Source of the DNA: an uncultured Methanobrevibacter sp.
GTDB lineage: Archaea > Methanobacteriota > Methanobacteria > Methanobacteriales > Methanobacteriaceae
DNA: 62,427 bases
Assembly: GCF_947166415.1 (NCBI RefSeq)
Contig: NZ_CAMVEE010000006.1
Span: forward strand, 1-62,427
Reading direction: 5' to 3'
Positions 11,805-36,383 of this stretch are shown in pieces (positions within the stretch are counted from its first letter, which is position 1; every line of letters starts with the position of its first letter). The notes under the pieces were generated by a model. It saw nothing but the letters and a program-made list of their open reading frames with translations, was not told where the DNA came from and searched no databases. The position numbers and the translations under genes are program-made.

Positions 11805-12881
11805 ATGCAGCGGATAAAGTATTTTGATGCCTTAAGGTTTTTGGCAATTTTCGGCGTAGTTGCCCTGCACGTGTTTCAAAGCTTCAAAGATGTACCATTG
11901 GGTAGCATCAATGTGATGAGCTTTATTGAGATATTCGAGTTTGCAGTTCCGGTATTTCTAATGATAAGCGGAGCTTTGCTTTTGAATAGGGAAATGCCGA
12001 TAGACGAGTTTTTAAAAAGAAGGTTTTCAAGGCTGACTTATCCGTTCATCTTATACATGATTATTTATGCAGCGGTTCTGTTTTTATTGATGAGCTTTGT
12101 TTCTGGATTTTCAGGCCTTGTTCATTGGCTTTCCAATTTGCCATTGAACTACAACTGGTACTTCTGGACTATAGCAAGCCTCTATCTTGCAATTCCTATT
12201 TTGGCCAAGTTCGTCAGGCATTCATCATTCAGGGAACTGGAATATTTCATCACAGTTCTAATTATTGGCTGCATATTCTATCAGATCACTCTTCTTTTTG
12301 GAATAATGCATTACATTGATTTGAACCTCTTCGTAAGCCCTATGGCTTATCTTGTTTTAGGATATTACCTTGCAAACAAGGACTTTAAGATAAGCACAAA
12401 CAAAATCATTACAATAGCTCTGGCTTTATTTATATTAACAACATTATTCAAGATGTCAGGCCATATCCTGCCTGTTCCGATGCAGCTAATTGAAAACTAC
12501 GAGGCAACAAGGTCAATGATACTCTCATCATACATTGACATGGGACTTCCACAGATCATTCAGGCCGCATCTGTATTTGTTTTCTTCAGATATGTATATG
12601 AAAGCAAAAGCGGATTTTATCTGGCTTTAAGCAACTTTTTGAATGGAAGCTTCACAAGCAAGTTCATCCTCTCTGTCAGCATGGCAAGCTACGGCATGTA
12701 CCTTTTCCACCACACTCTGATTGAGCCTTTAAGGGAAGTCGTTAAAAACTATGCTTTCACAGGCCCTCAGACATTATTGCTGATAATCGTTTTGACAGTT
12801 TCAATCTTCATCATCTTATGGATAGTCGTGATGCTGATTAGCAAGATTCCATATATAGGAAAATATTCAGGATTCCACTAA
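11805..12881 (+). CDS. Acyltransferase 3 family membrane protein (O-acetylation)
   Basis: This 358-residue polytopic protein has about ten hydrophobic helices and the family start RIKYFDALRFLAIFGVVALHV, with the conserved R and H of acyltransferase 3 (OafA/WecH-like). Such enzymes move acyl groups, usually acetyl from acetyl-CoA, onto surface polysaccharides. A TATA-like stretch (TTTTTATATG) lies about 25 bases before the ATG and no ribosome binding site is seen, so the mRNA is probably leaderless. It opens the surface-polymer locus, suggesting the target is the glycan or polyol polymer made by its neighbours. Confidence 0.85.
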   Translation: MQRIKYFDALRFLAIFGVVALHVFQSFKDVPLGSINVMSFIEIFEFAVPVFLMISGALLLNREMPIDEFLKRRFSRLTYPFILYMIIYAAVLFLLMSFVSGFSGLVHWLSNLPLNYNWYFWTIASLYLAIPILAKFVRHSSFRELEYFITVLIIGCIFYQITLLFGIMHYIDLNLFVSPMAYLVLGYYLANKDFKISTNKIITIALALFILTTLFKMSGHILPVPMQLIENYEATRSMILSSYIDMGLPQIIQAASVFVFFRYVYESKSGFYLALSNFLNGSFTSKFILSVSMASYGMYLFHHTLIEPLREVVKNYAFTGPQTLLLIIVLTVSIFIILWIVVMLISKIPYIGKYSGFH

Positions 12882-12919: not shown

Positions 12920-14668
12920 ATGGGTTTTAAACAGAAGATTCGAAATATCAAGGATTGTAAGGACAATTCGTCAATATATGATGTATATTACAAAGAAAAC
13001 ATTGATGAAAGTTTAATATATTTCGAATCCAGAAATGGACGCGATTTTGCAGGAAACATTTTAAGGATAATTGAAGAGATTTCCACAGGAAGGTATGGGG
13101 ACTTCAATATCTGTGTTTTTGCAAATCCTGCAGTCAAGCTCAAGATTGAGGAGTTCAAGAAAAACTACAACCTTAAAATAGACAGAATCATCACCTCCGA
13201 AAAGGAAGCCTCAAAGACTCTTGAGAAAGCCAAATACATTTTCACTGATTCCGGAATCCAGTACAAATATGTCAAAAGGGACGGCCAGGTCTTCATTGAC
13301 CTGTGGCACGGAACCCCTTTGAAGCTGATGGGAATCGATTATGCCTCAGAAATAGCTTCAATTGGCCATATCCAGCACCCATTGCTTTCTTCTGATTATC
13401 TTCTATATCCGAATGAGTACATGATGGACATCATGCTTAGGGCATACCAGATTGAGAAAATCTATCCTGGAAAGATCATTCTTGAAGGATATCCGAGAAA
13501 TGCCGTGTTTTTTGATGATAAAAGACGTTTAGAAGTGAAAGAGAAACTGGGATTTGAGGATAGGGAAGTCTTCATATACATGCCGACCTACAGGGGAGAA
13601 GTTCAAAAAATCGATGACAATAGGGATTTCATTGTGGAGTTTTTAGCCAAAATGGATGAAATGCTTGATGAAAATCAACTTTTGATTGCTAAGCTGCATC
13701 CGTATGACGAATCTAACATTGACTATTCAAATTTCAATAATGTGATTACGTTTCCTGAGGGCTTTGAGACATATGATGTTTTGAATGTTTGTGACGTTTT
13801 GATAACAGATTATTCTAGCGTACTTTTTGACTTTGCAAATACGGGAAAAAAGATAATCCTCTATAATTATGATGAGGAAAATTATTTATCTTCAAGAGGC
13901 ATCTACATTCCGCTTGATGAACTGCCGTTTTCAAAGGTTCAGGATGCTGATGCATTGATAAACGAATTGAATACACCTAAAAATTATGATGATAATGACT
14001 TTTTGAAAAAGTTCTGTATTTTCGACAATATTGATGCCGCAGAAAGGCTTTGCAGGCACATATTCACCAATGAAAAGGTCTGTGAGGAAAGGGAAATCGA
14101 AAACTCCAAAGAAAATATCCTTATTTATCCCGGAAAGATTACAGATTCATTTATCAACTTTGCACAAACAATAAGTGAAAAGTACAATATATTCATCACA
14201 TACAACCAGTGGGATGCATATTTCAAGGAAAACTGTGCCGAAATCATTGAAAGGCTTCCTGAAAATGTTGAATTGCTGCCGTTCAGATTCAACCTGACAC
14301 TTACATTTGACGAAAAGAAGGATTACAATAGGTATTTCGCATCAAGTGACATGGAATGTCCGGACTCATTAAACAAACTGTTCAAAAGATCCTATGACAA
14401 GCAATACCAAAACATTGATTTCAAGGCAATAATTGACTTTGACGCCACCAATCCAAACGTTTCATCAATGTTTGCATTATCCAACTCCAATTCGGTCATA
14501 TGGATTCATGAGGACACATTTAAAAAGGCAAACGCCAATGTCTTGAAAAATCTATTGCCGAAATTCGGGACAGTTGTGGCGGATTCATCCGAACTGGCCA
14601 AAAAAGTCAGGGAAATTTCTGATGAATACATTAAAATATCCGAAAATATTGAAGACATTCTCTTTTAA
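12920..14668 (+). CDS. CDP-glycerol glycerophosphotransferase-like protein with a half GT-B domain
   Basis: The protein has 582 residues. Residues about 30-380 are a CDP-glycerol:poly(glycerophosphate) glycerophosphotransferase (TagF-like) domain: LWHGTPLK with His130, LYPNEYM, GYPRN, YMPTYRG, and TDYSSVLFDFA at 296-306. Residues about 395-582 look like only the N-terminal half of a GT-B glycosyltransferase (ILIYPGKITDSFINFAQ, then VIWIHEDTF and VVADSSELAKKV). The stop comes where the donor-binding half would begin. The first domain should transfer glycerol phosphate or another polyol phosphate onto a membrane-linked acceptor at the inner face. Leaderless start likely. Role in a teichoic-acid-like polymer is inferred from the neighbours GpsA and the nucleotidyltransferase. 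Confidence 0.8.
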   Translation: MGFKQKIRNIKDCKDNSSIYDVYYKENIDESLIYFESRNGRDFAGNILRIIEEISTGRYGDFNICVFANPAVKLKIEEFKKNYNLKIDRIITSEKEASKTLEKAKYIFTDSGIQYKYVKRDGQVFIDLWHGTPLKLMGIDYASEIASIGHIQHPLLSSDYLLYPNEYMMDIMLRAYQIEKIYPGKIILEGYPRNAVFFDDKRRLEVKEKLGFEDREVFIYMPTYRGEVQKIDDNRDFIVEFLAKMDEMLDENQLLIAKLHPYDESNIDYSNFNNVITFPEGFETYDVLNVCDVLITDYSSVLFDFANTGKKIILYNYDEENYLSSRGIYIPLDELPFSKVQDADALINELNTPKNYDDNDFLKKFCIFDNIDAAERLCRHIFTNEKVCEEREIENSKENILIYPGKITDSFINFAQTISEKYNIFITYNQWDAYFKENCAEIIERLPENVELLPFRFNLTLTFDEKKDYNRYFASSDMECPDSLNKLFKRSYDKQYQNIDFKAIIDFDATNPNVSSMFALSNSNSVIWIHEDTFKKANANVLKNLLPKFGTVVADSSELAKKVREISDEYIKISENIEDILF

Positions 14669-14731
14669 GTCAAGATTTTTAAAAGGATTTACTTGTTATT
14701 ATTTAACTCAGATGCTCTTTGATTTATCTAA

Positions 14732-14745
14732 TTCGATTAATCGAA
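14732..14745. promoter_or_regulatory. 14-bp perfect palindrome upstream of the methyltransferase gene
   Basis: TTCGATTAATCGAA reads the same on both strands and sits about 110 bases before the methyltransferase start, in the 187-bp gap after the TagF-like gene. A dimeric regulator could bind here. No regulator gene is adjacent, so this is only a candidate site. Confidence 0.3.
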
Positions 14746-14855
14746 CTTTATTTATGAAAATTCACTTTTGGCTGGAGCTCTCCAATGTGATTTGAATAAC
14801 ATTTATGTACCATTAACATTAAACCTTATTATAATGATACATTACGTGATGATAT

Positions 14856-15809
14856 ATGGCTGAAATCGAATTGAAAGCTGAAAAGTTGAGCGAAAATGAC
14901 AATTCAGAAAATGTGGAAATGAGCGAAGAGGAAATCTGGCTTATAAAGCATCTTATTGAAAAATATAATCCAAGAAAGATTGTCGAAATCGGCATTTCTG
15001 CCGGAGGAAACACAGTCAACCTGTTGAATTGGAAGGATGACAATGCCCAGCTGTTTTCCATTGACCTTGCAGAAAACTGGTATAAGGACAGCACAAAGCT
15101 ATCCGGATTCATGGCCGATGATGTGGAAAACAAGAAAAACTTTAAGATATACAGGGGATATGATTATCTTGATGTTTATGAGGAGATTGGAGATGGCATC
15201 GATTTCATAGTGATAGACACAGTCCATGCCATGCCTGGTGAATTTCTGACTTACATACTTGCTCTTCCCCAGCTTAAGGACGGATGTGTTGTCGTTTTCC
15301 ATGACATTCATTTGAACATGAAAAAAATCAAGAACAATAAGTTCAGGGATAATGAGGTCTCCATGTACTGCACAGGATTGCTGTACTCTTCAATAAGCGC
15401 CAATGAAAAATACAGTTTGCAGACTGATGTAATCTCCAATATCGGAGCGTTGATTGTTGATGATACCACACGAAACGGGGTTAAAGATGTCTTCAGAAGC
15501 CTATGCTCAAAATGGTTTAACTTTCCGGCTAACCTGAACCTTGACGGCTACCGGGAATATGTAAAGGAATATTATCCGATTGAATGCTATAACCTGTTTT
15601 GCATTTGCCTGGATTTCCAGGAAAAATACTTCAAAAATAAGGCCGCCGAAAGAAGGCAGTCCCTTCATGAATTGAAAGATAAAGAGGAAGAACTTGAATC
15701 CCTTCAAATGGAACTCGATTCAGCTAAAAAGGAAAATGAGCTGATTAAATCAACAGTCAGCTGGAAAATAACAAAGCCCTTAAGAGAGTTTAGAAAATTA
15801 ATCAAATAG
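14856..15809 (+). CDS. SAM-dependent methyltransferase with coiled-coil tail
   Basis: The 317-residue protein has a class I methyltransferase core at residues 30-210. It shows motif I KIVEIGISAGGNT, an acidic strand end SIDLA, then DFIVIDTVHAMPG and VVFHDIH, resembling the Methyltransf_24 group and cephalosporin-hydroxylase-like enzymes. Residues 260-317 form a coiled coil (KEEELESLQMELDSAKKENEL) ending in SWKITKPLREFRKLIK. That tail also occurs on glycosyltransferases and a pyruvyltransferase in this locus. It probably methylates a sugar or polymer end at the membrane (inference). The ATG is preceded by GTGATGAT. Confidence 0.75.
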   Translation: MAEIELKAEKLSENDNSENVEMSEEEIWLIKHLIEKYNPRKIVEIGISAGGNTVNLLNWKDDNAQLFSIDLAENWYKDSTKLSGFMADDVENKKNFKIYRGYDYLDVYEEIGDGIDFIVIDTVHAMPGEFLTYILALPQLKDGCVVVFHDIHLNMKKIKNNKFRDNEVSMYCTGLLYSSISANEKYSLQTDVISNIGALIVDDTTRNGVKDVFRSLCSKWFNFPANLNLDGYREYVKEYYPIECYNLFCICLDFQEKYFKNKAAERRQSLHELKDKEEELESLQMELDSAKKENELIKSTVSWKITKPLREFRKLIK

Positions 15810-15992
15810 AAAATTCGGAGCTTTAATTTTTCGATATTTGCCGCTTAAGCTTGCATATATTCAGGGATTTCGCCTTTTTCTTTTGAAAAATAAAAGCCAA
15901 CTTGAAAAATGACAAGGCAGTGTGCCCAAATTATCTAATTTTAAATACAATAATTTCCATATTTATTAATGTATAGTTACAGGAGTTTTTAA

Positions 15993-18900
15993 ATGAAAAC
16001 CAGAATAAGCGTTATTATTCCAATTTATAATGTTCATGAATTTTTAGAGGAGTGCATAGACTCCGTATTGGCCCAGACAATCAATGATTTGGAACTTACA
16101 GACGGCTATGAAAGAAACCTCCAAATCATTTTGATAGATGACGGATCCACTGACGATACCGCAGACATTGCAAAGGGGTATGTGGACAGATACGAAAACA
16201 TAGAATATCACTATGAGGAAAACCAGGGATTGGGCCATGCAAGAAACTACGGATGCGAATTTGCAGTCGGGGACTACATAATATTCCTTGACTCAGATGA
16301 CGTCATCTCACCCAATGCATACGAATGGATGTACACAGCAGCGGTTAAAAACGGAAGCGACATGACCATAGGAAACGTATGGCGTTTCAACTCCAAGGGA
16401 ACAATGATGAGCAACATCCACCAGACAGCATTCAACGTGAAAAAGGAAGTTACACACATCACTGAATCTCCTGAACTCTTTTATGATACAACAGCATGGA
16501 ATAAGTTAATAAAGCGCAGCTTCTGGGACAAACACGGCTTCAAGTTCCCTGAAGGAATATTATATGAGGACATACCTGTAACAATGCCTATGCACTTTCT
16601 TGCAAATAACGTTTCAATAGTACATGAAAACTGCTATTTGTGGAGGATAAGGGAAGGAAAGTCAAAATCCATCACACAGACAACAGCAGAAACCAAGAAC
16701 CTTACAGACAGGCTCTCTGTAATGAGAATGGTTGACAAGTTCTTTGATGAAAACGTGGCTGATGAGTATCTTCATCATGTAAAGACCATGAAATGGCTCA
16801 AAATAGACTTGAAGATATTCATAAACAAGCTCAAAAGCCTCAGGGAAGATGAATCACAGGAAATCATCAGGATGCTTCAGGAATACATCAATGAAAACAT
16901 TGACAGAAAAGAGTTCCAGAACCTGAACGAATTCGATGAACTGGAATACGAATACCTTATGGAAGGTGACTTCAAGAAGCTCTATGACGTATTGAATTTC
17001 GAATTCGATACATTGAAGGTGACAAAGGTATATCAGAAAGGTGGCCATGTGATGTTTGACGCCGATAAGAATTTATTTAAGAAATCACCATTCACAATCG
17101 ACAGATACGTGAGGGAAAACGTCAATTTCAAATACCTTCAGGAAGTCAAGTTCGGCGAGGAAAATGTTGAAATCAGAGGATTCTGTGTAATTCCAGGTTT
17201 GAACATCGACAATTACTCTGACAGAGAATATTCATTCGAGCTTGTAAATGCAAAAAGCAGGAAAAGGATTCCTCTTGAATATGAGGATGTCGAAACCGGA
17301 AGCCTCACTTCATTCGACATACGTTTCGGAAGAAGGTTCTCCTATAAAAAGGCAGGCTATAAGATAAACATTCCATATTCCAAGTTCTACAACAATCCTG
17401 ACTTTACAGGAGAAAACAGGATTATGGTTTCATTTACACAACAGGGCATCAATCACAACTTCTTTGCCGGATCAGCCAAGGTAAACGTTCGCGATTCAAG
17501 TAACATGCAGGCTAGGATATATGAAAATACCTATTTCAGATTCAAATACACACTTAAAAACGAGATAATCATTGAAATATTCCCATTGAAGAGAAGCTAC
17601 GATAAGGTTACAGTAGAAAACGGCAATCTGTGCATACACTCACCTCAATTTAATGGCGACCTCTTTGTTTACTATCCTGAAGATTCCCTGAACTGCGAAG
17701 TCAAGATGAAGTTTGACTGGGATGGCGAGAACAGCATTTATTCAATCGGAATCGACCAGCTCAGGAACATAAAGGGAAAGATAATCTATGAGGATGGTGA
17801 AACAGCCGTTTACACTTCAAAGGACCTCCTTGCTTTCGCCACACCGCAGGGTCAGGTAATAATTGACCCTTCCAAGGACTATTACATGGACATTTATAAG
17901 TATGAAAACACTACCTTGGTATCAGACGTTAAGCAGAACGGAGGCAGATTTGAAATAACAGCCAGGCTCATGTCAAAGCAATCAGCTGATTTGCAATCAG
18001 CAAAACTTTACTTCAAGGATGCATTGAACCTGCAGAAATACCATGTAAGCGACGCCAAAGTTTCAGGCGATACGCTCATGTTCAATTTGGACCTTTCAGA
18101 CAAGAGAGTTACCAAAAACCTCTACAAGGGAATGCATGACCTGTATGTGGGCTATGACGGTTTTGAAACTCCACTGCACATAGCATTCGATTATAACGAG
18201 ACATATCAAAAAGGATTATATGATTACATTGTTCACAGGGAAGATGAAAGCAGGTTAAGGGTTAATACAATAAGGAACTGGCCAATATACGAGGACACTC
18301 CTGGAAAAAGGCTAAAGCATTCAAAACTAACCTACAGGGCATTTCTCAAGTTGCCTATCAACAATAAAAGAATCATATTCGAATCCATGTGGGGTTCAAA
18401 ATACAGCTGCAATCCAAGATATCTCTATGAATTCATCAATGAGAACTATCCTGACTGGGATTGCATATGGGTTTTGGGAGATGAGCACATTCCAATCAAC
18501 GGATCAGGAAAGAGAGTCAGAAGGTTTTCCGTGAAATACTTCTATTACCTTGCGACTTCAAAGTTCTTTGTAAACAACGTCAATTTCCATGAGCATTACG
18601 TCAAAAGGCCAGGCCAGATTGAAATCCAGACCATGCATGGAACACCTTTAAAGACCCTGGGACTGGACGTTCCCGGTGATTTCCCAACCAAGAAAAGGGA
18701 AGAGGAGTTCATAGAAAAATGCAGCCATTGGGATTACCTCACCGTTCAAAGTGATTTCGTTGCAGACATATCCGAAAGATGCTTCCTCTTTAAAAAGGAA
18801 TTTTTAAAATACGGATATCCTAGAACTGATATCCTTTATACAAAAAACAATGAAGATGACATTAAAAAATTAAAGGAAAAGATGGGCATTCCAATGGACA

Positions 18901-19469
18901 AGAAGGTCATTTTATATGCACCTACATGGAGATTGAAAAACAAGTTTGACATGATGCTTGATTTGGAATCCCTTAAAAAGTCACTTTCAGATGAATACGT
19001 GCTGATTTTAAGGCTCCACCATTTCTCGGCCGAAGGATGGAAGCAGCCGCCTGAGGATGACTTCGTATATGACCTTACAGACTACGATTCAGTTGAGGAG
19101 ATATACCTTATTTCAGATATCATGATTACAGACTACTCTTCAGTCATGTTCGACTATGCGATACTGGGCAGGCCAATAATCCTTTTCGCATTTGACCTTG
19201 CTGAGTATAGGGAAAAGCTCAGGGGATTATATGTCGACATTGAGGACAACACTCCAGGACCAATCCTATATACATCAAAAGAGGTTGAAGATGCTATATT
19301 GAACATTGAAGAGACCAAAGCCCAGTCCAAAGATTTGATGGACAGGTTCTGTGAGAAGTTCATACAGTATGAATGCGAAAACTCATCCGAAAAGATATTT
19401 GATGAAGTGATGAAAAAGCATGGAAATGAAGGCATATTGAACAAGGTATTGAGAAAGATAATGCCATGA
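15993..19469 (+). CDS. Bifunctional GT2 glycosyltransferase / CDP-glycerol glycerophosphotransferase
   Basis: This is a 1158-residue fusion. Residues 1-330 are a GT2 (GT-A fold) domain: VIIPIYNVHEFLEECIDSVL, IDDGSTD, FLDSDDV as DxD metal site and LYEDIPV. Residues about 370-760 are strand-rich and may be linker beta-domains. Residues about 780-1150 are a TagF/TarF-like polymerase domain with MHGTPLK (His882), GYPRTD, YAPTWR and TDYSSVMFDYA (about 1046-1056). No signal peptide or membrane helix is seen. The design matches enzymes that alternately add sugar and polyol phosphate when building teichoic-acid-like chains. GpsA follows 75 bp later and would supply sn-glycerol-3-phosphate. Confidence 0.85.
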   Translation: MKTRISVIIPIYNVHEFLEECIDSVLAQTINDLELTDGYERNLQIILIDDGSTDDTADIAKGYVDRYENIEYHYEENQGLGHARNYGCEFAVGDYIIFLDSDDVISPNAYEWMYTAAVKNGSDMTIGNVWRFNSKGTMMSNIHQTAFNVKKEVTHITESPELFYDTTAWNKLIKRSFWDKHGFKFPEGILYEDIPVTMPMHFLANNVSIVHENCYLWRIREGKSKSITQTTAETKNLTDRLSVMRMVDKFFDENVADEYLHHVKTMKWLKIDLKIFINKLKSLREDESQEIIRMLQEYINENIDRKEFQNLNEFDELEYEYLMEGDFKKLYDVLNFEFDTLKVTKVYQKGGHVMFDADKNLFKKSPFTIDRYVRENVNFKYLQEVKFGEENVEIRGFCVIPGLNIDNYSDREYSFELVNAKSRKRIPLEYEDVETGSLTSFDIRFGRRFSYKKAGYKINIPYSKFYNNPDFTGENRIMVSFTQQGINHNFFAGSAKVNVRDSSNMQARIYENTYFRFKYTLKNEIIIEIFPLKRSYDKVTVENGNLCIHSPQFNGDLFVYYPEDSLNCEVKMKFDWDGENSIYSIGIDQLRNIKGKIIYEDGETAVYTSKDLLAFATPQGQVIIDPSKDYYMDIYKYENTTLVSDVKQNGGRFEITARLMSKQSADLQSAKLYFKDALNLQKYHVSDAKVSGDTLMFNLDLSDKRVTKNLYKGMHDLYVGYDGFETPLHIAFDYNETYQKGLYDYIVHREDESRLRVNTIRNWPIYEDTPGKRLKHSKLTYRAFLKLPINNKRIIFESMWGSKYSCNPRYLYEFINENYPDWDCIWVLGDEHIPINGSGKRVRRFSVKYFYYLATSKFFVNNVNFHEHYVKRPGQIEIQTMHGTPLKTLGLDVPGDFPTKKREEEFIEKCSHWDYLTVQSDFVADISERCFLFKKEFLKYGYPRTDILYTKNNEDDIKKLKEKMGIPMDKKVILYAPTWRLKNKFDMMLDLESLKKSLSDEYVLILRLHHFSAEGWKQPPEDDFVYDLTDYDSVEEIYLISDIMITDYSSVMFDYAILGRPIILFAFDLAEYREKLRGLYVDIEDNTPGPILYTSKEVEDAILNIEETKAQSKDLMDRFCEKFIQYECENSSEKIFDEVMKKHGNEGILNKVLRKIMP

Positions 19470-19544
19470 ATACTTAAAAATGGAACAGTTTAATAATTAA
19501 TAATAATAAAAATAATAAGAAAGAGTTACTTATCGGTGAAAATT

Positions 19545-20513
19545 ATGGATAAAGTAGGCGTTATTGGTGCCGGAAGTTTGGGAACTGCACTGGCACAAAC
19601 AATAGCACAGAATGTTGATGAGGTTTGTCTGCAATTGAGGCGTGAAAATCTGGCAAAGGCAATTAATGAAACTCGCTTCAACACAGAATATTATCCTAAT
19701 ACAAGATTATTGGATAATATTACTGCTACAACTGATTTGAATGACTTGAAAGACTGCAAAGTAATATTTTTATCTATACCCTCATCAGCTTTCAGAACAA
19801 CTTTGGAAAAGCTGAAAGATGTAGTTTCAGATGATGCCATTCTTGTTACAACAGCAAAGGGTATCGAGTATCCTTCACTAAAGACAATGGGAAATCTTGT
19901 TGAGGAATATTTCGATGATCAGTATGTGGCCCTTTCCGGACCTAATTTCGCATCTGAAATAGTATTGAACCAGCCGACAGTTTCAAACATAGCTTCAAAA
20001 AACAGGAAAAATGCCGAAACAGTCAAAAGGGTTCTCTCAACAGACCAGTATAAGGTGAAGATAATAGATGATGTGATTGGCCTTGAAATCTGCGGAGTGA
20101 TAAAGAACATCAACGCCATTGCAAACGGGATCTGTGAAGGAATGAACGTCAATGAAAACGCAAGATATGGCGTTCTGACAAAAGGATTCGATGATACAAT
20201 CAAGATTATTAAAAGTGTCGGGGGCATGGAGTCCACTGCAGGGGAGTACTGCGGATTCGGTGATCTGGTCCTGACATCAACATCATTTGAAAGCAGAAAC
20301 CACACATTAGGAATGCTTTACGGCCAAAGATTGATTGTCGATGAGAAGGCAAGCGGAGTTGTCTTTGAGGGAAAGAACTCAATCATGGCAATTAAGGACA
20401 TCTGCGATAATAACAATATCAAAAGCGTAATCGTAAACTTCGTATTTGATGTTATAGTAAATCAGATACCTCCAAAGATAGCATTTAGAGACTTATGGGA
20501 GAATATTGAATAG
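19545..20513 (+). CDS. gpsA: NAD(P)-dependent sn-glycerol-3-phosphate dehydrogenase
   Basis: The protein has 322 residues from ATG 19545, which follows a GGTGA site. The Rossmann motif GVIGAGSLGTALAQ opens the protein. TTAKGIEY, the LSGPNFASEI block with the substrate-binding region, and an internal GLEICGVIKNINAIANGI segment containing the catalytic Lys are all as in GpsA. It interconverts dihydroxyacetone phosphate and sn-glycerol-3-phosphate. Archaeal membrane lipids need the opposite isomer, sn-glycerol-1-phosphate, so GpsA here more likely feeds CDP-glycerol for the two TagF-like proteins. The nucleotidyltransferase gene begins 12 bp after it. Confidence 0.9.
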   Translation: MDKVGVIGAGSLGTALAQTIAQNVDEVCLQLRRENLAKAINETRFNTEYYPNTRLLDNITATTDLNDLKDCKVIFLSIPSSAFRTTLEKLKDVVSDDAILVTTAKGIEYPSLKTMGNLVEEYFDDQYVALSGPNFASEIVLNQPTVSNIASKNRKNAETVKRVLSTDQYKVKIIDDVIGLEICGVIKNINAIANGICEGMNVNENARYGVLTKGFDDTIKIIKSVGGMESTAGEYCGFGDLVLTSTSFESRNHTLGMLYGQRLIVDEKASGVVFEGKNSIMAIKDICDNNNIKSVIVNFVFDVIVNQIPPKIAFRDLWENIE

Positions 20514-20525
20514 CTAGTGATAAAT

Positions 20526-21290
20526 ATGATAGGTGTAATATTGGCAGCTGGAATGGGCACAAGACTTATGCCACTTACCAAGGAAATTCCAAAAGCTTTA
20601 TTGAAAATTAACGAAACCACATTGCTTGAAAGAATGATTATAAACTGCATTGATGCAGGAATATCAAAATTTATAGTCATTGTGGGATATAACAAGGACA
20701 AGGTCATTGACTTATGTCCAAAAATAGCTGAAAAATACGATATTGAAATAGAATGCATTGAAAACGATAAATATGAGGTTACAAACACATCCGTTTCCAC
20801 ATATCTTGCAAGCAAATACATAGAAGAAAATCCTGAAGACTTCATTCTGGTGAACGGAGACAATGTTGTTGACCCTGAAATAATCTCAAGAATCGCTGAA
20901 TGTGAAAATACAGGAATGATAATTGACAATTACAAGGATTTGAATGAGGAATCATTCAAATTGATTATAGATAACGAAACATTCAATGAGGACAAGTCCA
21001 TTTCAAACGGTGAAATCCACTCCATCGGAAAGGGCTTGGACATTCCGTCTTCAAGCGGAGAGTTCATTGGAGTTTCAAAAGTGATAAGCGAGGACATCAA
21101 AGATTTCAATCAGATCCTTTCCGGATTGATTGATGAAGACCCTCAAAATTACTACGATTTTGCTTATAAGGATTTAAGCAGAATCAAAACAATCGATTTT
21201 GTCCTAACCAACGGATTGAAATGGACAGAAATCGATGACCATACAGATTGGGAAAATGCCCAAAAACTTATTGGAGAATTAGAAAACTGA
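20526..21290 (+). CDS. Nucleotidyltransferase, LicC-like (possible CTP:glycerol-3-phosphate cytidylyltransferase)
   Basis: The 254-residue protein starts at ATG 20526. It opens with the sugar-nucleotidyltransferase signature LAAGMGTRLMPLTKEIPKAL and has a metal-binding VNGDNVVD at about residue 115. Size and pattern fit the LicC/IPCT branch that activates choline phosphate, inositol phosphate or similar alcohol phosphates with CTP, as well as sugar-1-phosphate uridylyl enzymes. It follows gpsA in the same operon, so I infer that it makes CDP-glycerol, replacing the unrelated TagD enzyme of Firmicutes. The substrate is not proven by sequence. Confidence 0.75.
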   Translation: MIGVILAAGMGTRLMPLTKEIPKALLKINETTLLERMIINCIDAGISKFIVIVGYNKDKVIDLCPKIAEKYDIEIECIENDKYEVTNTSVSTYLASKYIEENPEDFILVNGDNVVDPEIISRIAECENTGMIIDNYKDLNEESFKLIIDNETFNEDKSISNGEIHSIGKGLDIPSSSGEFIGVSKVISEDIKDFNQILSGLIDEDPQNYYDFAYKDLSRIKTIDFVLTNGLKWTEIDDHTDWENAQKLIGELEN

Positions 21291-22187: not shown

Positions 22188-22208
22188 TAATCCACATTGG
22201 GGAATATC

Positions 22209-23321
22209 ATGGTTGAAATTTCAGTTATAATGCCCGTCTACAATTGCGAAAATTATCTGGACGAATCAGTCCGCTCTATTTTAAATCAGACCTTCACGGA
22301 TTTTGAGTTGATTTGTGTTGATGACGGGTCAAAAGACAACTCATTAAGCATTCTTGAGGAATTTGCAAAAGATGAAAGTCGAATGAAAGTGTTCCACCAG
22401 GAAAATAAGGGCGGTGGAATAGCTAGGAATTTTGCGCTTTCAAAAACCTCAGGCAGATTCATTTGCTTTGTTGATGCCGATGATATCCTTGATGAGGTTG
22501 CCTTAAATGAAACCTATGAATTAATAACTGAAACTGATGCTGATTTTGTAATGTTTAAGGCCATAAACTTTGATGATGATAAAAAGAGGTACTACGAAAC
22601 CGAGTATTTTAGCATGAATGAGATATATGAAAGCGTTGGAAATGAGGCGTTTCATTACTCCGATTTGGGCGATTTGATTTTCAAGCTTTCCGTCACTCCC
22701 TGGGGAAAGCTCTACTCACGTGAACTTATTTTAAAATCCGAAGCGGAGTTTGCAGGGGGAATGTATCATGACAACAAGTTCTTCTGGAGGGCACTTCTAA
22801 ATTCCGAAAAAATCATCTTTTACAACAAGTGCCTTTATACAAGAAGAATCCATTCCGAATCCCTTCAAAGCTCTGATGATGAAAAGATCCTTTACATATT
22901 CGATGCATTCGATGCCATATTCGACATATTTATTGATGAAGGGGAATATGAGAAATACAAGTATCGGCTGTACAACTGGAAGATGGACTCGTTTCACTGT
23001 AAGTTCTTCCAGATAAGGGATGATTTGAAGCCGATGTTTTTAAGGAGATTGAAGCAGGACTTCCTGAAGATGATTGAAATCGACGGCAAAGATGATGTTA
23101 AAAGCAACTTGAATTCTAATTATGAAAAGGTATTCCATGAAGTGATGGCCTGTGAAAGCGACATGGAATTCAAGCTTTTGGCCGAAAAGTATAATTTAAA
23201 TAAGAAAGTTATTAAGTTACAAAAAGAAAATAATAGATTAAGAAGGAAAAATAGGGAAATTCTAAATTCCAGAAGTTGGAATATTACCAAACCTTTAAGG
23301 AAAATCAAAAATTTAAGGTGA
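22209..23321 (+). CDS. GT2 family glycosyltransferase with coiled-coil basic tail
   Basis: The protein has 370 residues counted from ATG 22209. The GT-A core shows VIMPVYNCENYLDESVRSIL, VDDGSKDNS, the FVDADDI metal-binding site, a GGMYHDNKFFW acceptor-side block and RRIHSES. The C-terminus (about residues 330-370) is a charged coiled coil followed by SRSWNITKPLRKIKNLR, the tail also present on the methyltransferase at 14856. It adds a sugar to a surface glycan at the cytoplasmic face; donor not predictable. UDP-glucose dehydrogenase starts 4 bp later, so the two are co-transcribed. Confidence 0.85.
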   Translation: MVEISVIMPVYNCENYLDESVRSILNQTFTDFELICVDDGSKDNSLSILEEFAKDESRMKVFHQENKGGGIARNFALSKTSGRFICFVDADDILDEVALNETYELITETDADFVMFKAINFDDDKKRYYETEYFSMNEIYESVGNEAFHYSDLGDLIFKLSVTPWGKLYSRELILKSEAEFAGGMYHDNKFFWRALLNSEKIIFYNKCLYTRRIHSESLQSSDDEKILYIFDAFDAIFDIFIDEGEYEKYKYRLYNWKMDSFHCKFFQIRDDLKPMFLRRLKQDFLKMIEIDGKDDVKSNLNSNYEKVFHEVMACESDMEFKLLAEKYNLNKKVIKLQKENNRLRRKNREILNSRSWNITKPLRKIKNLR

Positions 23322-23325
23322 TTCA

Positions 23326-24648
23326 ATGAAGATTACTGTTATCGGAACCGGTTATGTTGGACTTGTAACCGGCGCATGCTTTTCAAAAATGGGAAACAAG
23401 GTTTATTGCGTTGACATTGATGAGGAAAAGATTAACGGATTGAACAATAATATCCTGCCTATTTTTGAACCTAATCTGGATACAATAGTGAAGACTTCCC
23501 ATGACAGGGGAGATTTGATATTCACTACAAGCATCAGGGAAGCTCTTGATGATACTGATATTGTGTTCATCGCTGTGGGAACCCCTCTTGGTGAAGACGG
23601 AAGCGCCAATCTTGATTATATTTATGCTGCAGCAGATGATATTGCAGATAACATCACTCACGATTCACTGATTGTAATCAAGTCAACAGTTCCTGTTGGA
23701 ACATGCTTTGATGTTCGCGATAGGATTGAATCAGCTTTAAATAAAAGAGGCTGTGATGTGGAAATAGATATCGCCTCCAATCCAGAATTCCTTAAGGAAG
23801 GTAACGCCGTAAACGACTGCATGCATCCTGACAGAGTTGTAATCGGCGCTGAAAAGGCTGAAGTATTTGAAAGGTTAAAGGATTTATATTCATCATTCGT
23901 TCAAAACCATGACAGGTTTGTCCTTATGGATGTGAAAAGCTCTGAAATGACCAAATATGTTGCAAATGCAATGCTTGCAACCAAGATTTCATTCATGAAC
24001 GAGATGTCACACATCTGTGAAGCCACAGGTGCAAACATACAGAAGGTAAGACTTGGAATAGGATCAGACAAGAGAATAGGATATGATTTCATCTATGCCG
24101 GATGCGGATATGGGGGAAGCTGCTTTCCAAAGGACGTTCAGTCCCTGATCAATACCGCAAAGCAACATGGATACGAACCTAGGATACTGGCTGATGTGGA
24201 AGAGGTCAACAGGGAGCAGAAGATGGTTCTTGTAAACAAGGTAATAGACAGGTTCGGTGAGGACCTATCAGGCTTGAGCTTTGCAATCTGGGGTCTTTCA
24301 TTCAAGCCATATACCGATGATGTCCGTGAAGCCACATCCCTTGTTGTGGTAAGGCAACTGATTGAAAAGGGTGCTTCGATAAAGGCATATGACTCACATG
24401 CAATTGATGAGTTCAGAAGGGCTGTCGACAACGAATATCTTGATTCAATAGAATTTGTAGACAGCAGATATGGAGCCCTTGACGGCTGTGATGCTCTAAT
24501 ACTCATTACCGAATGGAAGGAGTTCAGAAACCCTGATTTCAGCATTCTATCCGAAAGACTTAACCAGAAGGTTATCTTTGACGGAAGGAACATCTATGAT
24601 AAGAAAATTATCGATTTGGGTTTTGAACTGTACCAAATTGGCTGTTAA
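23326..24648 (+). CDS. UDP-glucose 6-dehydrogenase
   Basis: The 440-residue protein has the NAD-binding start VIGTGYVGLVTGACF. A central domain contains EMTKYVANAMLATKISFMNE, the catalytic Cys266 lies in GYGGSCFPKDV, and the C-terminal UDP-binding domain has WGLSFKPYTDDVREA. It oxidises UDP-glucose twice to UDP-glucuronate. Among the three nucleotide-sugar dehydrogenases here this is the one of the classic Ugd/TuaD type. Its product would give acidic sugars to the surface polymer. It is followed by the T-rich stretch 24659-24690 and a separate transporter operon. Confidence 0.9.
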   Translation: MKITVIGTGYVGLVTGACFSKMGNKVYCVDIDEEKINGLNNNILPIFEPNLDTIVKTSHDRGDLIFTTSIREALDDTDIVFIAVGTPLGEDGSANLDYIYAAADDIADNITHDSLIVIKSTVPVGTCFDVRDRIESALNKRGCDVEIDIASNPEFLKEGNAVNDCMHPDRVVIGAEKAEVFERLKDLYSSFVQNHDRFVLMDVKSSEMTKYVANAMLATKISFMNEMSHICEATGANIQKVRLGIGSDKRIGYDFIYAGCGYGGSCFPKDVQSLINTAKQHGYEPRILADVEEVNREQKMVLVNKVIDRFGEDLSGLSFAIWGLSFKPYTDDVREATSLVVVRQLIEKGASIKAYDSHAIDEFRRAVDNEYLDSIEFVDSRYGALDGCDALILITEWKEFRNPDFSILSERLNQKVIFDGRNIYDKKIIDLGFELYQIGC

Positions 24649-27931: not shown

Positions 27932-29170
27932 ATGTCTCTTAAGGATAGGATATTGGAAAAAAGTGGCAGTTACAATTATTACAAGGATAACTATGGCCGC
28001 CTAAAAAAGCAGCTTAAAACAAAAAACAGCAAGATTAAGGATTATGAAGCTCTTATTCATAGTTTTGAGACAAGATTCGACAAATCAGATGGTCTGAAAA
28101 AGGATGCCAAGGATATAAACATTGCATATGTACTGTATGCGTTTCCTATCCATTCCCAGACATTCGTTGTAAATGAAGTCAGATGGCTTGTGGAAAACGG
28201 ATATAATGTTGTCATATTCACCAAAGCGGATTCCGACAAGCCGGTTGAACTTGACTTTGCTGTTGAAAATTACAGGTTCTCCAATACCACCCAACTGGAA
28301 GCGCTCTTTTTAGAGCATGACATAGACATTGCACACACTCATTTTATCTATCCCATGTGCACCAACTTCACATATCCGGTTTGCGAAAGGCTTAAAATGC
28401 CTTTTACAGTGTTCGTCCATGCATATGACATATTCAGAAAGGACAATGATGAGCGAAACAAGATTGATGAGATAAGCAATTCCGAGTGCTGCAGGGCAAT
28501 ATTTACCTTAAGCGAATTTCATAAAGATTACCTGCTTGAAAGGAATGTGCGTGAAGATAAGATTGTAATCACAAAGCAGGCAACAAGCTATGAACTCGCC
28601 CCATTGGCCAGAACGGATAGGAAAATCAAAAACATCATTTCAATTTCAAGATTTGTTGAAAAGAAGGGTCTCGATGTTTTAATCGATGCGGCCAAGCTTC
28701 TTGAAGATGAGGATTTCACCTTTGAGATATATGGATTCGGTGACCTTCACAATCAACTGCAAAGCCAGATAGATGAATTGGGATGCAGAAACATTTCCAT
28801 TAAAGGAGAGCTCCAACCTAATGAGGTTCAGGATAAACTGATGGAAGCAGACCTGTTGGCCGCCCCATGCAAGATAGCCAAAAACGGGGATATGGATGGA
28901 TTTCCGACAGTAATCTTTGAGGCCATGGCATGCGGCCTTCCATATGTAACCACAAAGGTTTCCGCAATTCCAGAAATAGTTGAAGATGGCGTGAACGGTT
29001 TTATAACAGAGCCGGCAAGCCCTGAACTCTTTGCTCAAAAAATCATTGAAGTGTCAAGATTATCCAGCGATGAACTCTTTGAAGTGATAAGGAAAGCCCA
29101 GGAAGATGTGGAAAACATCTCCAGCGTTGAAAAGACAATGAACAGGTTCATCGATACAATCAAAGAATAA
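27932..29170 (+). CDS. GT4 family glycosyltransferase
   Basis: The protein has 412 residues. A short coiled coil (residues 10-50) precedes a GT-B enzyme. The acceptor half has IAYVLYAFPIHSQTFVVNEV and IDIAHTHFIYP. The donor half has ISISRFVEKKGLDVLIDAAK, FEIYGFGDL and the family signature DGFPTVIFEAMACGLPYVTTKVSAIPEIV. It most resembles colanic-acid WcaL/AmsK-type retaining enzymes. It is a clear paralog of the gene at 39984, including the coiled-coil start MSxKDxxLxKS. It begins a run of same-strand glycan genes. Confidence 0.88.
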   Translation: MSLKDRILEKSGSYNYYKDNYGRLKKQLKTKNSKIKDYEALIHSFETRFDKSDGLKKDAKDINIAYVLYAFPIHSQTFVVNEVRWLVENGYNVVIFTKADSDKPVELDFAVENYRFSNTTQLEALFLEHDIDIAHTHFIYPMCTNFTYPVCERLKMPFTVFVHAYDIFRKDNDERNKIDEISNSECCRAIFTLSEFHKDYLLERNVREDKIVITKQATSYELAPLARTDRKIKNIISISRFVEKKGLDVLIDAAKLLEDEDFTFEIYGFGDLHNQLQSQIDELGCRNISIKGELQPNEVQDKLMEADLLAAPCKIAKNGDMDGFPTVIFEAMACGLPYVTTKVSAIPEIVEDGVNGFITEPASPELFAQKIIEVSRLSSDELFEVIRKAQEDVENISSVEKTMNRFIDTIKE

Positions 29171-29180
29171 GTGTTTTATT

Positions 29181-30563
29181 ATGAATTTAAGTAAAATCAT
29201 CAACAATAAATTCAAAAGCAAATACAGATTTACATTTTCTATTATTATAGCCGTCTATAATGCCGAAAAGTATTTGGATGAAACCATTCAGTCAATATTG
29301 TCACAGTCATTCAAGTTCAATAAGGTTCAGGTCATTCTTGTAGATGACGGATCCACAGACGGCTCAGGGGATATCTGCAACAGATATATGGAAAGATATC
29401 CGGACAATTTCATATACCTATACCAGAAAAACCAGGGACAGTCAGTTGCAAGAAACAACGGCTTAAACCATGTTGAAGGAAAATTCGTCAACTTTTTGGA
29501 CAGCGACGATTTATTGGAGACTAATGCATTGAAGGATGTTTACCAGCATTTCAAGTCATGGGGAAGTAAAATTGACGTGATTTCAATTCCAAGATTCACG
29601 TTCGGCCGTGTTAGCGAACCTGCGAAGTTTTATGATAAATATATGGAAAGCCGTGTAGTCGACATAGTGAAGGAATATGACTTTCCTCAGGTTTCAGTGA
29701 GTGCGTCATTCATCAGGACAAGCTCCATCGAGGATAAGTTCAACCGCGATTTGGTGATATCAGAGGATTCACTTTTTTTAAACAAGATCATACTTAAGAA
29801 ATGCAGATTCGGTGTTGTGGGCACTTCAAGGTACATGTACAGGAAGCGTGAAGATGAAGACTCCACAATTGATACAAGAAAATCAAGAAAGGAATATTTC
29901 ACGCCAAGAATGGAGATGTATTTCAATGAACTGATACTTGAATCACAGAATAGGCATAGAAAGGTCTTGAAATATATCCAAAACGTGCTTTTGTATGATC
30001 TCTACTGGATGCTTACACAAAATAGCGAAGTCGGAGTGCTTGATGATGCTGAAACCGAAGACTTCTATGAGCATATTCATGACGTTTTCCAGTATATCGA
30101 TGATGATGTGATTCTATCACAAAGCTACAGGAAATCATTGAAATATCACATGCTCAGCGTAAAATACGGCAATGAGGATTTTGACGTGAAAGATGACATT
30201 CTGCAAATCAATAGCAGGGACTTTGACAGGCTCGCCAATTACGCAATACACATTACGGATATTAAAAAAGATTCAAATAATGTGAGAATCGACTTTTATT
30301 ATGAATTTTACCCTATTGATTTTGGCCTGAAGGCATCCGCTGACGGCAATGAATATGATTTGGATTTCAAATCAGTTGATGAAACCATTTCAATGGGAAG
30401 ATGCATATTGAACAAATATTACTATTCCATCACTTTGGGAAATGAAAAGGAGATTTCATTTAAAAGAATGATGTCAGGTGATGAATATCCTGTTAGACTA
30501 ATGGATGAAGCTGAAAATGATGGCTTTGATATAAGCGATTACTCCATAACAATTAGAAATTGA
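29181..30563 (+). CDS. GT2 family glycosyltransferase
   Basis: The 460-residue protein has a GT-A core at 15-250 with SIIIAVYNAEKYLDETIQSIL, VDDGSTDGSGD, FLDSDDL and SEDSLFLNKI, followed by YRKREDEDSTID. The C-terminal 170 residues (after about 290) are helical then strand-rich and match no family I know. It starts 10 bp after the GT4 gene and ends 4 bp before the CgeB-like gene, so the three are one transcription unit. It belongs to the polymer-forming GT2 group; substrate unknown. Confidence 0.85.
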   Translation: MNLSKIINNKFKSKYRFTFSIIIAVYNAEKYLDETIQSILSQSFKFNKVQVILVDDGSTDGSGDICNRYMERYPDNFIYLYQKNQGQSVARNNGLNHVEGKFVNFLDSDDLLETNALKDVYQHFKSWGSKIDVISIPRFTFGRVSEPAKFYDKYMESRVVDIVKEYDFPQVSVSASFIRTSSIEDKFNRDLVISEDSLFLNKIILKKCRFGVVGTSRYMYRKREDEDSTIDTRKSRKEYFTPRMEMYFNELILESQNRHRKVLKYIQNVLLYDLYWMLTQNSEVGVLDDAETEDFYEHIHDVFQYIDDDVILSQSYRKSLKYHMLSVKYGNEDFDVKDDILQINSRDFDRLANYAIHITDIKKDSNNVRIDFYYEFYPIDFGLKASADGNEYDLDFKSVDETISMGRCILNKYYYSITLGNEKEISFKRMMSGDEYPVRLMDEAENDGFDISDYSITIRN

Positions 30564-30567
30564 TAAC

Positions 30568-32028
30568 ATGATTCTTGATAAGATTAAAAGCAAACTGAAA
30601 AGGGAAAAGAAGATAAAGAATTTGAGGGACATTAAGGTAGCCCTCATTGCAGACCAGTTCACCTATGACTCATATAAATATGAATTCAATGCAATAACAA
30701 TAAACCCTGATGACTGGAAGGAGAAATTCAAAACTGAAAAGCCTGACATATTCCTCTGTGAATCAGCATGGGACGGGCATAACTTTGAAGGTCTCTACGG
30801 CCCTTGGAGAGAAAAGATTTATCAGAAGCTGAATGAAAAGGAAAACAGGACAATTCTTTTTGAAATCCTGGAGTACTGCCGTAAAAACTCAATTCCTACA
30901 GTTTTCTGGAACAAGGAGGACCCTCCACATTATAAAGATCACAGATTGTCATATGCAGACACCGCAAGCAGGTTCGACTATATATTCACAACCTCTGCAA
31001 ACTGCATCAAGCATTACAAAAAGGACTTCAATCATCCTCATGTATATTCCCTGATGTTTGCAGGCCAGCCTAGGCTGTTCAATCCATTAAACATGTCAGG
31101 AGAGACAATAGAGGATGTTGTCTTTGCAGGTTCATATTATGAGGACAAGCCTGAAAGGGCAAGGCTTATGGATGACATCTTCGACAGGCTCATTGCCGAA
31201 GGCGTTAACTTGAGAATCTATGACCGCCAGCATTTCAAAAACTGGGGAAACTATCCTGAAAGGTTTCAGGCATATACACTACCACCTATTGATTATAAGG
31301 ATACTGCAGATATCTATAAGAAAATGAAATGGGGACTTAATTTTAACATAGTTACTGACTCAGAAACCATGTTTGCAAGAAGGGTTTTTGAATTAGCTTT
31401 AAGCAATGTGTACATCATCACAAACTATTCTTTGGGAGTATGTAAAATATTCGATGATAACATTTTTGTCTTTGACCGGGAGGAGGGAATACCTGACTTC
31501 ACCAAAGACTATGAAAGAGAAAGAATGAATAACCTATACAATGTTCTTGAAAACCATACCTACAAGAACAGATGGAAACAGGTCCTTGATACAATCGGAT
31601 TTGAATATAAGCAAGACCCAGAAGACATTGCAGTCATATACAGGCTGGATGATGAAAGTGAAATGGATGCAATCATTAATGATTTCAACAGTATAGATTA
31701 TCCTGAAAAGACCCTCAACATCATCGCTGATGAAAGCCTTAAAGGTCTTAAGGAAAAATATGGCGCAATCGATGGAATCTATCCAAGTTTGGATAAACTT
31801 AAAAAAGACATTTCCACCCAATATCTAATCCTGATTGATGGTGCCATCGATAATGACTTTATCAGAAAGGCAATTTTGCACTACCAGTATCTTGACAAGG
31901 ACATTGCAATAGCAGAAGGTAGCGATAAATTTAGCTTAAACGCTGAAAAGGGCATTGAAAACAAGGTAATTCCTTTAAGAAATTATGATCTCATTGAAGA
32001 TGGAGAAATCAATGTTTATTATATCTAA
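30568..32028 (+). CDS. CgeB-like glycosyltransferase
   Basis: The protein has 486 residues. A basic start is followed by NLRDIKVALIADQFTYDSY and then a GT-B fold of the CgeB/Glyco_trans_1_2 type: FLCESAWDG, IPTVFWNKEDPPHY, FDYIFTTSANCI, VVFAGSYYEDKPERA, then MKWGLNFN, SETMFARRVFELALSNVYIITN. The last 110 residues resemble a degenerate GT2-like fold ending VYYI. It is a close paralog of 34726-36369, which carries an extra N-terminal coiled coil. Members of this family glycosylate surface layers or spore coats. No stable donor prediction. Confidence 0.8.
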   Translation: MILDKIKSKLKREKKIKNLRDIKVALIADQFTYDSYKYEFNAITINPDDWKEKFKTEKPDIFLCESAWDGHNFEGLYGPWREKIYQKLNEKENRTILFEILEYCRKNSIPTVFWNKEDPPHYKDHRLSYADTASRFDYIFTTSANCIKHYKKDFNHPHVYSLMFAGQPRLFNPLNMSGETIEDVVFAGSYYEDKPERARLMDDIFDRLIAEGVNLRIYDRQHFKNWGNYPERFQAYTLPPIDYKDTADIYKKMKWGLNFNIVTDSETMFARRVFELALSNVYIITNYSLGVCKIFDDNIFVFDREEGIPDFTKDYERERMNNLYNVLENHTYKNRWKQVLDTIGFEYKQDPEDIAVIYRLDDESEMDAIINDFNSIDYPEKTLNIIADESLKGLKEKYGAIDGIYPSLDKLKKDISTQYLILIDGAIDNDFIRKAILHYQYLDKDIAIAEGSDKFSLNAEKGIENKVIPLRNYDLIEDGEINVYYI

Positions 32029-32244
32029 ATCAATCATATATTTTGCGATAGATCACGCTCAAGATGAAGATAAACAGATAGCTATTTTTGAATTATTAAA
32101 CATTATTTTGTTTATTTTTCGATTTTATAATAAATGTAGTTAAATATGATGAAAAATAAAAATATACAGTAATATAATTAAATTTAAGAAAGATTTAAAT
32201 TACATGGGATAAAAATAATATAATAATTTAAGGGAGTGATTTTT

Positions 32245-33483
32245 ATGAAAGTATGTATTATAGGTCAAGGATATATCGGATTGCCGACTGCAGCATTGTT
32301 TGCAAAAAATGACTGCGAAGTCGTTGGTGTGGATGTTATAGAATCCGTTGTTGAAATGTTGAATAAAGGTGAAATCCACATCGAAGAGCCTGGACTTGGC
32401 GAAATCATTAAGACAGCTTTGGATAAGGGAGTATACAAGGCAAGCTTAACTCCTGAAAAGGCTGACGCATTTATCATTACCGTACCAACACCATACATAG
32501 TCGAAAACTACAGCTGCGATTTGAGTTACGTAATCAGCGCATGCGAATCAATTTTACCGTTTGTTGAAAAGGGCAACACCATTATCGTTGAATCCACTAT
32601 CGCTCCATTATCAACTGATGAAACCGTAAAGCCTATATTTGAAAATGCCGGCTTTACCATTGGTGAGGATTTATACCTTGCCCATTGTCCTGAAAGGGTG
32701 CTTCCAGGTCAAATCATATATGAATTGGTTAACAACAACCGTATTATTGGAGGAGTCACTCCTGAATGTTCCAAAAAGGCCGCTGAAGTTTACGGCCAAT
32801 TCGTAAAAGGTGAATTGATGCTTACTGAAGCAAAAACCGCGGAACTTTCAAAATGTATGGAAAATACTTTCCGTGACGTCAATATCGCTTTGGTAAATGA
32901 GCTTACCAAAATCTGTGCTGAAATTGGTGTAAACGCATTGGACGTTATTGAAGTTGCAAACAAGCACCCTAGAGTAAACCTTCACTCACCGGGACCTGGT
33001 GTTGGAGGACACTGCCTTGCAATCGATCCATACTTCATATATGCAAAAGCCCCTGAAACCGCAAAGATAATCAAGTTGGCACGTGATACCAACAGATCAA
33101 TGCCTGGCTTTGTGGCTGAAAACGTCAGAAAGATTATTCCTGATGGAAAAATCGCAGTTTTAGGAATATCATACAAAGGAAACACTGACGATGACAGGGA
33201 AAGTCCTGCATATGAGATAATCGCTTTGCTTGACAACGATTATGAAATAGCTGTACATGACCCTCATATAGACAAGGAAAATCTAGTAGGTTTTGATGAG
33301 GCGATTGACGGTGCGGACTTGATTCTAGTTCTATGTGATCATGATGAGTTCAAGAAAATGGACTACGATTTAATTAAGGACAAATCTTCCAAACCAATTA
33401 TATTCGATACCAAAAACGTTGTTGAGGATGTCCCTGAAGACATAACATTATACAACTTCGGAAACCTATACAAATTAAACTAA
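32245..33483 (+). CDS. wecC: UDP-N-acetyl-D-mannosamine dehydrogenase
   Basis: The 412-residue protein starts at ATG 32245 after GGGAGTGA. It shows the Rossmann motif IIGQGYIGLPTAALF, AHCPERVLPGQ, and Cys257 in GVGGHCLAIDPYF. The C-terminal domain has LGISYKGNTDDDRESP. These features group with WecC-type enzymes that oxidise UDP-ManNAc to UDP-ManNAcA. ManNAc-uronate-type sugars are known in methanogen surface glycans. It has its own promoter region (216 bp upstream) and precedes the alpha/beta-hydrolase-like gene by 16 bp. Confidence 0.85.
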   Translation: MKVCIIGQGYIGLPTAALFAKNDCEVVGVDVIESVVEMLNKGEIHIEEPGLGEIIKTALDKGVYKASLTPEKADAFIITVPTPYIVENYSCDLSYVISACESILPFVEKGNTIIVESTIAPLSTDETVKPIFENAGFTIGEDLYLAHCPERVLPGQIIYELVNNNRIIGGVTPECSKKAAEVYGQFVKGELMLTEAKTAELSKCMENTFRDVNIALVNELTKICAEIGVNALDVIEVANKHPRVNLHSPGPGVGGHCLAIDPYFIYAKAPETAKIIKLARDTNRSMPGFVAENVRKIIPDGKIAVLGISYKGNTDDDRESPAYEIIALLDNDYEIAVHDPHIDKENLVGFDEAIDGADLILVLCDHDEFKKMDYDLIKDKSSKPIIFDTKNVVEDVPEDITLYNFGNLYKLN

Positions 33484-33499
33484 TCATTTGGTTGTTATC

Positions 33500-34585: not shown

Positions 34586-34606
34586 ACAATCAACTCTTTT
34601 TTTTTA
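34586..34606 (+). terminator. Poly-T terminator candidate after the hydrolase-like gene
   Basis: A run of T bases beginning near 34597 lies 10 bases after the stop codon, with no strong hairpin. Archaeal RNA polymerase can end at such tracts. The next gene starts 120 bp downstream with its own TATA-rich leader. Confidence 0.35.
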
Positions 34607-36369: not shown

Positions 36370-36383
36370 ATAAGGGTGTTTGC

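Follow-up and report, generated by a model that had tools for sequence, protein, structure and literature searches.

We describe a locus on a 62,427-nucleotide contig of an uncultured Methanobrevibacter sp. (NZ_CAMVEE010000006.1; the whole of this stretch is called the window), where genes for two TagF-like proteins, a bacterial-type glycerol-3-phosphate dehydrogenase (GpsA) and a LicC-type nucleotidyltransferase (NTase) lie together. Judging from the protein families and their linkage, this locus probably encodes a CDP-glycerol branch feeding TagF-type transferases, and such a compact archaeal gene set would most likely make glycerol-phosphate surface polymers akin to bacterial teichoic acids. 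In the proposed pathway, GpsA would convert dihydroxyacetone phosphate to sn-glycerol-3-phosphate (G3P), the NTase would join G3P and CTP to give CDP-glycerol, filling the role of TagD/GCT while being unrelated to TagD, and the TagF domains would pass glycerol phosphate from CDP-glycerol to a lipid-linked glycan. The CDP-glycerol part of this scheme appears likely, and the polymer part plausible. The genes concerned are:

12,920-14,668, + strand: TagF-A, 582 aa (PF04464, 2.8e-61)
15,993-19,469, + strand: TagF-B, glycosyltransferase family 2 (GT2, GT-A) plus TagF, 1158 aa (PF00535, PF04464)
19,536-20,513, + strand: GpsA-1, NAD(P)H-dependent sn-glycerol-3-phosphate dehydrogenase (PF01210, PF07479, NF000942, PDB 1z82, tree clade)
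20,526-21,290, + strand: LicC-type NTase, proposed CTP:sn-glycerol-3-phosphate cytidylyltransferase (PF00483, LicC match, AlphaFold2 fold)

A preliminary description of this DNA had placed two TagF-like domains, GpsA and a LicC-like NTase within 8.4 kb, and family profiles confirm all four as intact, uninterrupted open reading frames (ORFs) on the same strand. In a Methanobacteriales genome (G000 in our set) of 1.72 Mb and 91.7% completeness, the window makes up contig C6; our statements on the genome as a whole rest on family searches. The locus is native to the archaeon, since in the closed genome of a relative (G027) the gpsA-NTase-TagF set lies between orthologues of the genes that flank it in the window (50-87% identity); this common synteny rules out bacterial contamination.

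Linkage of gpsA, NTase and TagF in Methanobacteriales

The comparative set comprised 150 Methanobacteriales genomes; a phylum-wide search for gpsA covered 152 genomes, nearly the same set, and amounts to no wider test. The orthologue group of the NTase is present in 50 of the 150, and 48 of these also possess gpsA, the other two being metagenome-assembled genomes (MAGs) that are 83-84% complete. The preliminary description had proposed to look at the co-occurrence of gpsA and TagF-like genes in methanogens, and within this order it is borne out, as TagF is found in all 66 gpsA-bearing genomes (two TagF-negative genomes were deduced from the presence list). The association of gpsA, NTase and TagF is far beyond chance, and supports the view that the three constitute a functional unit conserved within the order.

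The physical arrangement is equally consistent. Among 54 copies of the NTase gene, 39 directly adjoin gpsA, eight lie at 2-9 kb on the same strand, and seven are on contigs devoid of gpsA. Other gpsA copies have different neighbours: 20 lie near a TarI-like enzyme (immediately next to it in 17 cases, 0.6-1.6 kb away in three) whose best PDB match is a ribitol-5-phosphate cytidylyltransferase (1.5e-54) and whose G000 copy passes NF001183; nine are beside a distant NTase with best PDB matches to PntC and LicC; and seven are beside a fusion of a TagD-like domain with a Gfo/Idh/MocA reductase. Four kinds of cytidylyltransferase thus occur near gpsA (LicC-like, distant LicC/PntC-like, TarI-like and TagD-like fusion), and 75 of the 83 gpsA copies adjoin one or are close to it, rising to 78 of 83 within 3 kb, with two of the remaining five at contig ends. 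Were GpsA not feeding CTP activation, the repeated presence of such unlike cytidylyltransferases beside gpsA would be difficult to account for.

We are inclined, with some reserve, to view the GpsA of Methanobacteriales as dedicated to supplying surface polymers with activated glycerol phosphate, and as paired with at least four types of cytidylyltransferase, the LicC-like one representing a new, non-homologous family of CTP:sn-glycerol-3-phosphate cytidylyltransferases. Both enantiomers would then be in use, sn-glycerol-1-phosphate (G1P) in lipids and G3P in the wall.

The fusion protein is about 440 aa long (for example L097:3750-5078) and is found in about 40 genomes, its TagD-like domain having TarD as best PDB match (3.9e-34). 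Outside the archaea, a parcubacterial contig encodes Wzx followed (L138:2772-6547) by an NTase joined to a HAD-type hydrolase, by GpsA and by TagF, in this order, so that bacteria have a form of the trio of their own.

TagF proteins and the predicted product

Both TagF proteins belong to PF04464, with 208 bits for TagF-A and 370 bits for TagF-B against a curated cut-off of 22.1 bits. TagF-A consists of a TagF-like glycerol-phosphate transferase (aa 20-382) followed by the N-terminal half of a C-terminal GT4-type domain, carries the histidine motifs LWHGTPLK (13,301-13,324) and AKLHPYDE (13,688-13,711), and matches best Cps3D in the PDB (8qoy, 1.8e-46). Its orthologues of 795-801 aa have a complete C-terminal glycosyltransferase domain; the C-terminal half is missing from TagF-A, and no remnant of it was found in the 187-bp gap downstream. 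In TagF-B, an N-terminal PF00535 domain (123 bits, 1.2e-35) with the motif DDGSTD (16,137-16,154) precedes the PF04464 domain (1.8e-110), where QTMHGTPLK (18,627-18,653) and LRLHHF (19,008-19,025) are found, and the protein aligns with Staphylococcus epidermidis TagF (3l7i) at 3.6e-75. The catalytic histidines are kept in both, as HGTPLK and LRLHHF or KLHPYD align with the positions mutated in 3l7j and 3l7m, which we take to be H444 and H584 of the S. epidermidis enzyme. The scores for the TarF equivalog NF041712 (280 and 107 bits) fall below its cut-off of 550.

TagF-like capsule polymerases come in two known layouts, of which GT-A plus TagF is one (PMC8262930). TagF-B is accordingly laid out as a candidate poly(glycosyl-glycerol-phosphate) polymerase that probably would add sugar and glycerol phosphate in alternation, while TagF-A would probably act as a plain glycerol-phosphate transferase. 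It may also be that CDP-glycerol serves solely to decorate a glycan or glycoprotein with single glycerol-phosphate units and no polymer is formed, a sub-case sharing the first steps of the pathway to which we attach a smaller but real probability. The TagF family does include one-unit primases (TagB/TarB), and of the second transferase domain of TagF-A only half is left; against single decorations, TagF-B matches best the polymer-forming TagF 3l7i, and has GT-A joined to TagF as in known capsule polymerases (PMC8262930).

For the polymer that we favour, primer and export would come from genes on other contigs. The preliminary description held that every step from dihydroxyacetone phosphate to the polymer was present; GpsA, the non-TagD NTase and TagF would cover their share of these, but no primer or linkage enzyme and no exporter was recognised within the 8.4-kb region (TagA and TagGH were not searched for genome-wide). 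Candidate lipid-carrier genes of the TagO/MraY family (PF00953) are present on contigs C11 and C34 and candidate Wzx-type flippase genes (PF01943) on C1 and C18, all unlinked to the locus.

G000 also has a stand-alone TagF-like gene coding for 366 aa in another cluster, which also holds a distant NTase (C4:53422-54459; L081:7375-8475). TagF genes of similar length recur in many genomes devoid of gpsA, and this protein therefore probably uses another donor.

The LicC-type nucleotidyltransferase

Alignment of orthologues favours the ATG at 20,526 as the start of the NTase over a longer ORF from a GTG at 20,517, in agreement with the preliminary description, and leaves a gap of 12 nt after gpsA. 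The protein matches PF00483 with 61 bits, its closest solved relative is LicC (1jyk, E 6.7e-14), and its AlphaFold2 model (pLDDT 93.9, pTM 0.91) has PntC and LicC as top PDB folds, so that both sequence and fold place it nearest LicC/PntC in the LicC-type family COG1213. Orthologues with at least 52% identity are found only in Methanobacteriaceae, mostly beside gpsA and often with TagF. The archaeal NTases paired with gpsA share the motifs TNTS and NGD, whereas bacterial LicC-type enzymes have YNN and DAD/EAD; NGD is also present in sugar NTases.

The preliminary description had further called the cytidylyltransferase a non-TagD one. This fits the family assignment, and TagD/GCT (TIGR01518) is found nowhere in G000 above cut-off (best match E 3.7e-7), in an assembly whose 92% completeness means that one may have been missed; among the 150 genomes, a true TagD above cut-off occurs in one.

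Besides a TagD gene possibly missed in G000, several points weigh against a CDP-glycerol pathway. Foldseek places sugar-1-phosphate NTases (3.6e-15) close behind LicC (6.2e-16), and fold alone therefore leaves the substrate class unsettled. It is the strong gene association, together with families and motifs, that makes activation of G3P with CTP by the NTase likely. Hexose phosphate is another group that TagF-like domains can transfer (PMC8262930), and TagF occurs without gpsA in 62 of the 150 genomes, so that TagF alone is no proof of glycerol. Some Methanobrevibacter carry gpsA and the NTase as an isolated pair next to gatB, no TagF being recognised within about 6 kb, and the pair is therefore a unit in itself. 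Finally, the Fisher p value for the occurrence of gpsA with the NTase (1e-21) overstates independence, as the genomes compared are related.

The near-equal Foldseek scores, in a fold family that holds GalU and RmlA types, also speak for an NTase that supplies the surrounding glycan cluster by activating a sugar-1-phosphate, with gpsA serving a separate purpose and their neighbourhood being incidental; many glycosyltransferases and nucleotide-sugar dehydrogenases are indeed present in the window. However, in both sequence and fold the NTase is closest to two CTP enzymes, LicC and PntC, the solitary gpsA-NTase pair beside gatB persists outside any glycan cluster, and the NTase without gpsA is seen in incomplete MAGs only, making this explanation improbable.

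To us it seems similarly doubtful that the NTase acts in the manner of genuine LicC/PntC enzymes, activating phosphocholine, phosphoethanolamine or a phosphonate to decorate the polymer, with CDP-glycerol coming from another enzyme. LicC and PntC are its best PDB matches, and contig C18 of G000 bears a phosphonate cluster with phosphoenolpyruvate (PEP) mutase and LicD. Yet a CTP_transf domain and a TarI-like enzyme of its own are encoded in that cluster, the TNTS and NGD motifs depart from those of the bacterial LicC-type neighbours, and only a minority of NTase loci contain LicD, while no archaeal one has PEP mutase.

GpsA and the two glycerol phosphates

GpsA of the locus matches PF01210 and PF07479, and scores 265 bits with the subfamily profile NF000942 (cut-off 257). 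It aligns with PDB 1z82 (5.3e-40) over the nucleotide and substrate stretches, where GAGSLG, AKG, SGPNFA, KN-A--G and GFGDL-LT-TS--SRN are kept. In a tree with 15 bacterial sequences, the archaeal ones form one clade, with long branches and narrow sampling.

The presence of GpsA in Methanobacteria was reported earlier with no role given (PMC5059525), and bacterial-type genes of archaea have been considered unlikely to act in lipid synthesis (PMC6431249). That GpsA makes G3P for bacterial-type lipids, or for glycerol storage or redox balance, would match its usual bacterial role and its place in the lipid-divide literature (PMC5059525, PMC6431249), but is highly improbable given that the G3P acyltransferase PlsY is found in one of the 150 genomes, a MAG with 8% contamination, that G000 encodes EgsA, the G1P dehydrogenase of archaeal lipid synthesis, on contig C24, and that gpsA adjoins cytidylyltransferases and not lipid genes. 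We consequently reject a function of GpsA in bacterial-type lipids.

A second gpsA is present in G000 on contig C18 (L080, 1104-9904), preceded by LicD and directly followed by the TarI-like cytidylyltransferase, with a cytidylyltransferase-PEP mutase fusion and a thiamine pyrophosphate enzyme beside it. This arrangement suggests a phosphonate-bearing surface polymer.

Comparison with known systems and significance

The proposed pathway resembles that of Gram-positive wall teichoic acid (TagD/TarD, TagB, TagF) in the logic of a CDP-glycerol-type donor and in the catalytic histidines of TagF. It differs in that a LicC-type cytidylyltransferase stands in place of TagD, gpsA is part of the unit, the host is an archaeon with pseudomurein, and neither TagA nor TagGH is recognised in the cluster. 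The capsule polymerases Cps3D, Cps7D and Cps11D of Actinobacillus pleuropneumoniae similarly join a TagF domain to a GT-A or GT-B domain (PMC8262930), but work with a TagD-type GCT (Cps3B/7B), and the GT4 domain is incomplete in TagF-A.

LicC (CTP:phosphocholine) and PntC (CTP:2-aminoethylphosphonate, AEP), although the nearest relatives of the NTase, are only 23% and 20% identical to it in the fold alignment, and its partner is gpsA instead of a LicA/LicD or AEP-transaminase context. A further COG1213 enzyme, Caulobacter CTP:phosphoglycerate cytidylyltransferase (CpgD), makes CDP-glycerate (PMC12275187, PMC13228409); it activates a three-carbon phosphate, and the COG1213 fold can therefore accept such a substrate, even if the product of CpgD serves a sphingolipid head group. 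R16, K26 and N110-G111-D112 of CpgD have apparent counterparts in the NTase, judged from the published description and not from a direct alignment; no CpgD chain was among the PDB search matches, and the comparison of residues does not discriminate between substrates. CDP-glycerol in an archaeon has a precedent in the Archaeoglobus glycerol-phosphate cytidylyltransferase (Rodrigues 2017, as summarised in PMC8262930), which, according to that summary, prefers glycerol 1-phosphate (Gro1P) and serves glycerophosphoinositol; the Aquifex glycerol-phosphate cytidylyltransferases, as far as the same account goes, belong to other families than the NTase.

The general idea of teichoic-acid-like polymers in Methanobrevibacter has already been published for M. 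ruminantium, whose walls are rich in phosphate and whose genome has homologues of teichoic-acid genes (PMC2812497), and one TagF gene has been placed under teichoic acid biosynthesis (PMC5816558). What is likely new here is the linkage of gpsA, NTase and TagF together with a putative non-TagD CTP:glycerol-3-phosphate enzyme: we found no literature that joins GpsA, a LicC-type cytidylyltransferase and TagF in archaea, in a search that left subscription papers mostly uncovered and so does not prove absence. Glycerol-phosphate surface polymers would explain why these archaea retain a gene whose product makes glycerol phosphate in its 'bacterial' form. The linkage offers one testable answer to two puzzles, namely what the bacterial-type GpsA of Methanobacteria is for, a question left hanging in discussions of the lipid divide (PMC5059525, PMC6431249), and which polymer accounts for the high phosphate content of M. 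ruminantium walls, none having been identified so far (PMC2812497). In this answer G3P goes via CDP-glycerol to the envelope and not to lipids; a new cytidylyltransferase activity would be expected, as would a surface antigen on methanogens of the rumen and gut.

Neighbouring genes

The locus runs on into a longer surface-glycan cluster. Other genes in and around it are:

11,805-12,881, + strand: acyltransferase-3 family protein (PF01757, 1.7e-32)
14,856-15,809, + strand: methyltransferase-like protein between the two TagF genes (PF13578, 6.8e-11)
22,197-24,648, + strand: GT2 glycosyltransferase and UDP-sugar 6-dehydrogenase, continuing the surface-glycan cluster (PF00535, 6.1e-37; PF03721, 1.2e-63)
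27,932-45,391, + strand: further surface-polysaccharide genes, with GT1/GT2/GT4-type transferases, two more nucleotide-sugar dehydrogenases and a polysaccharide pyruvyl transferase

The acyltransferase-3 protein is a possible candidate for O-acylation of the polymer. Within the glycan cluster, the proteins encoded at 33,488-34,585 (365 aa) and 42,619-44,388 (589 aa) have no Pfam match; the first of these and the product of 36,384-37,652 (422 aa) are apparent paralogues, each following a DUF3880/GT-like gene.

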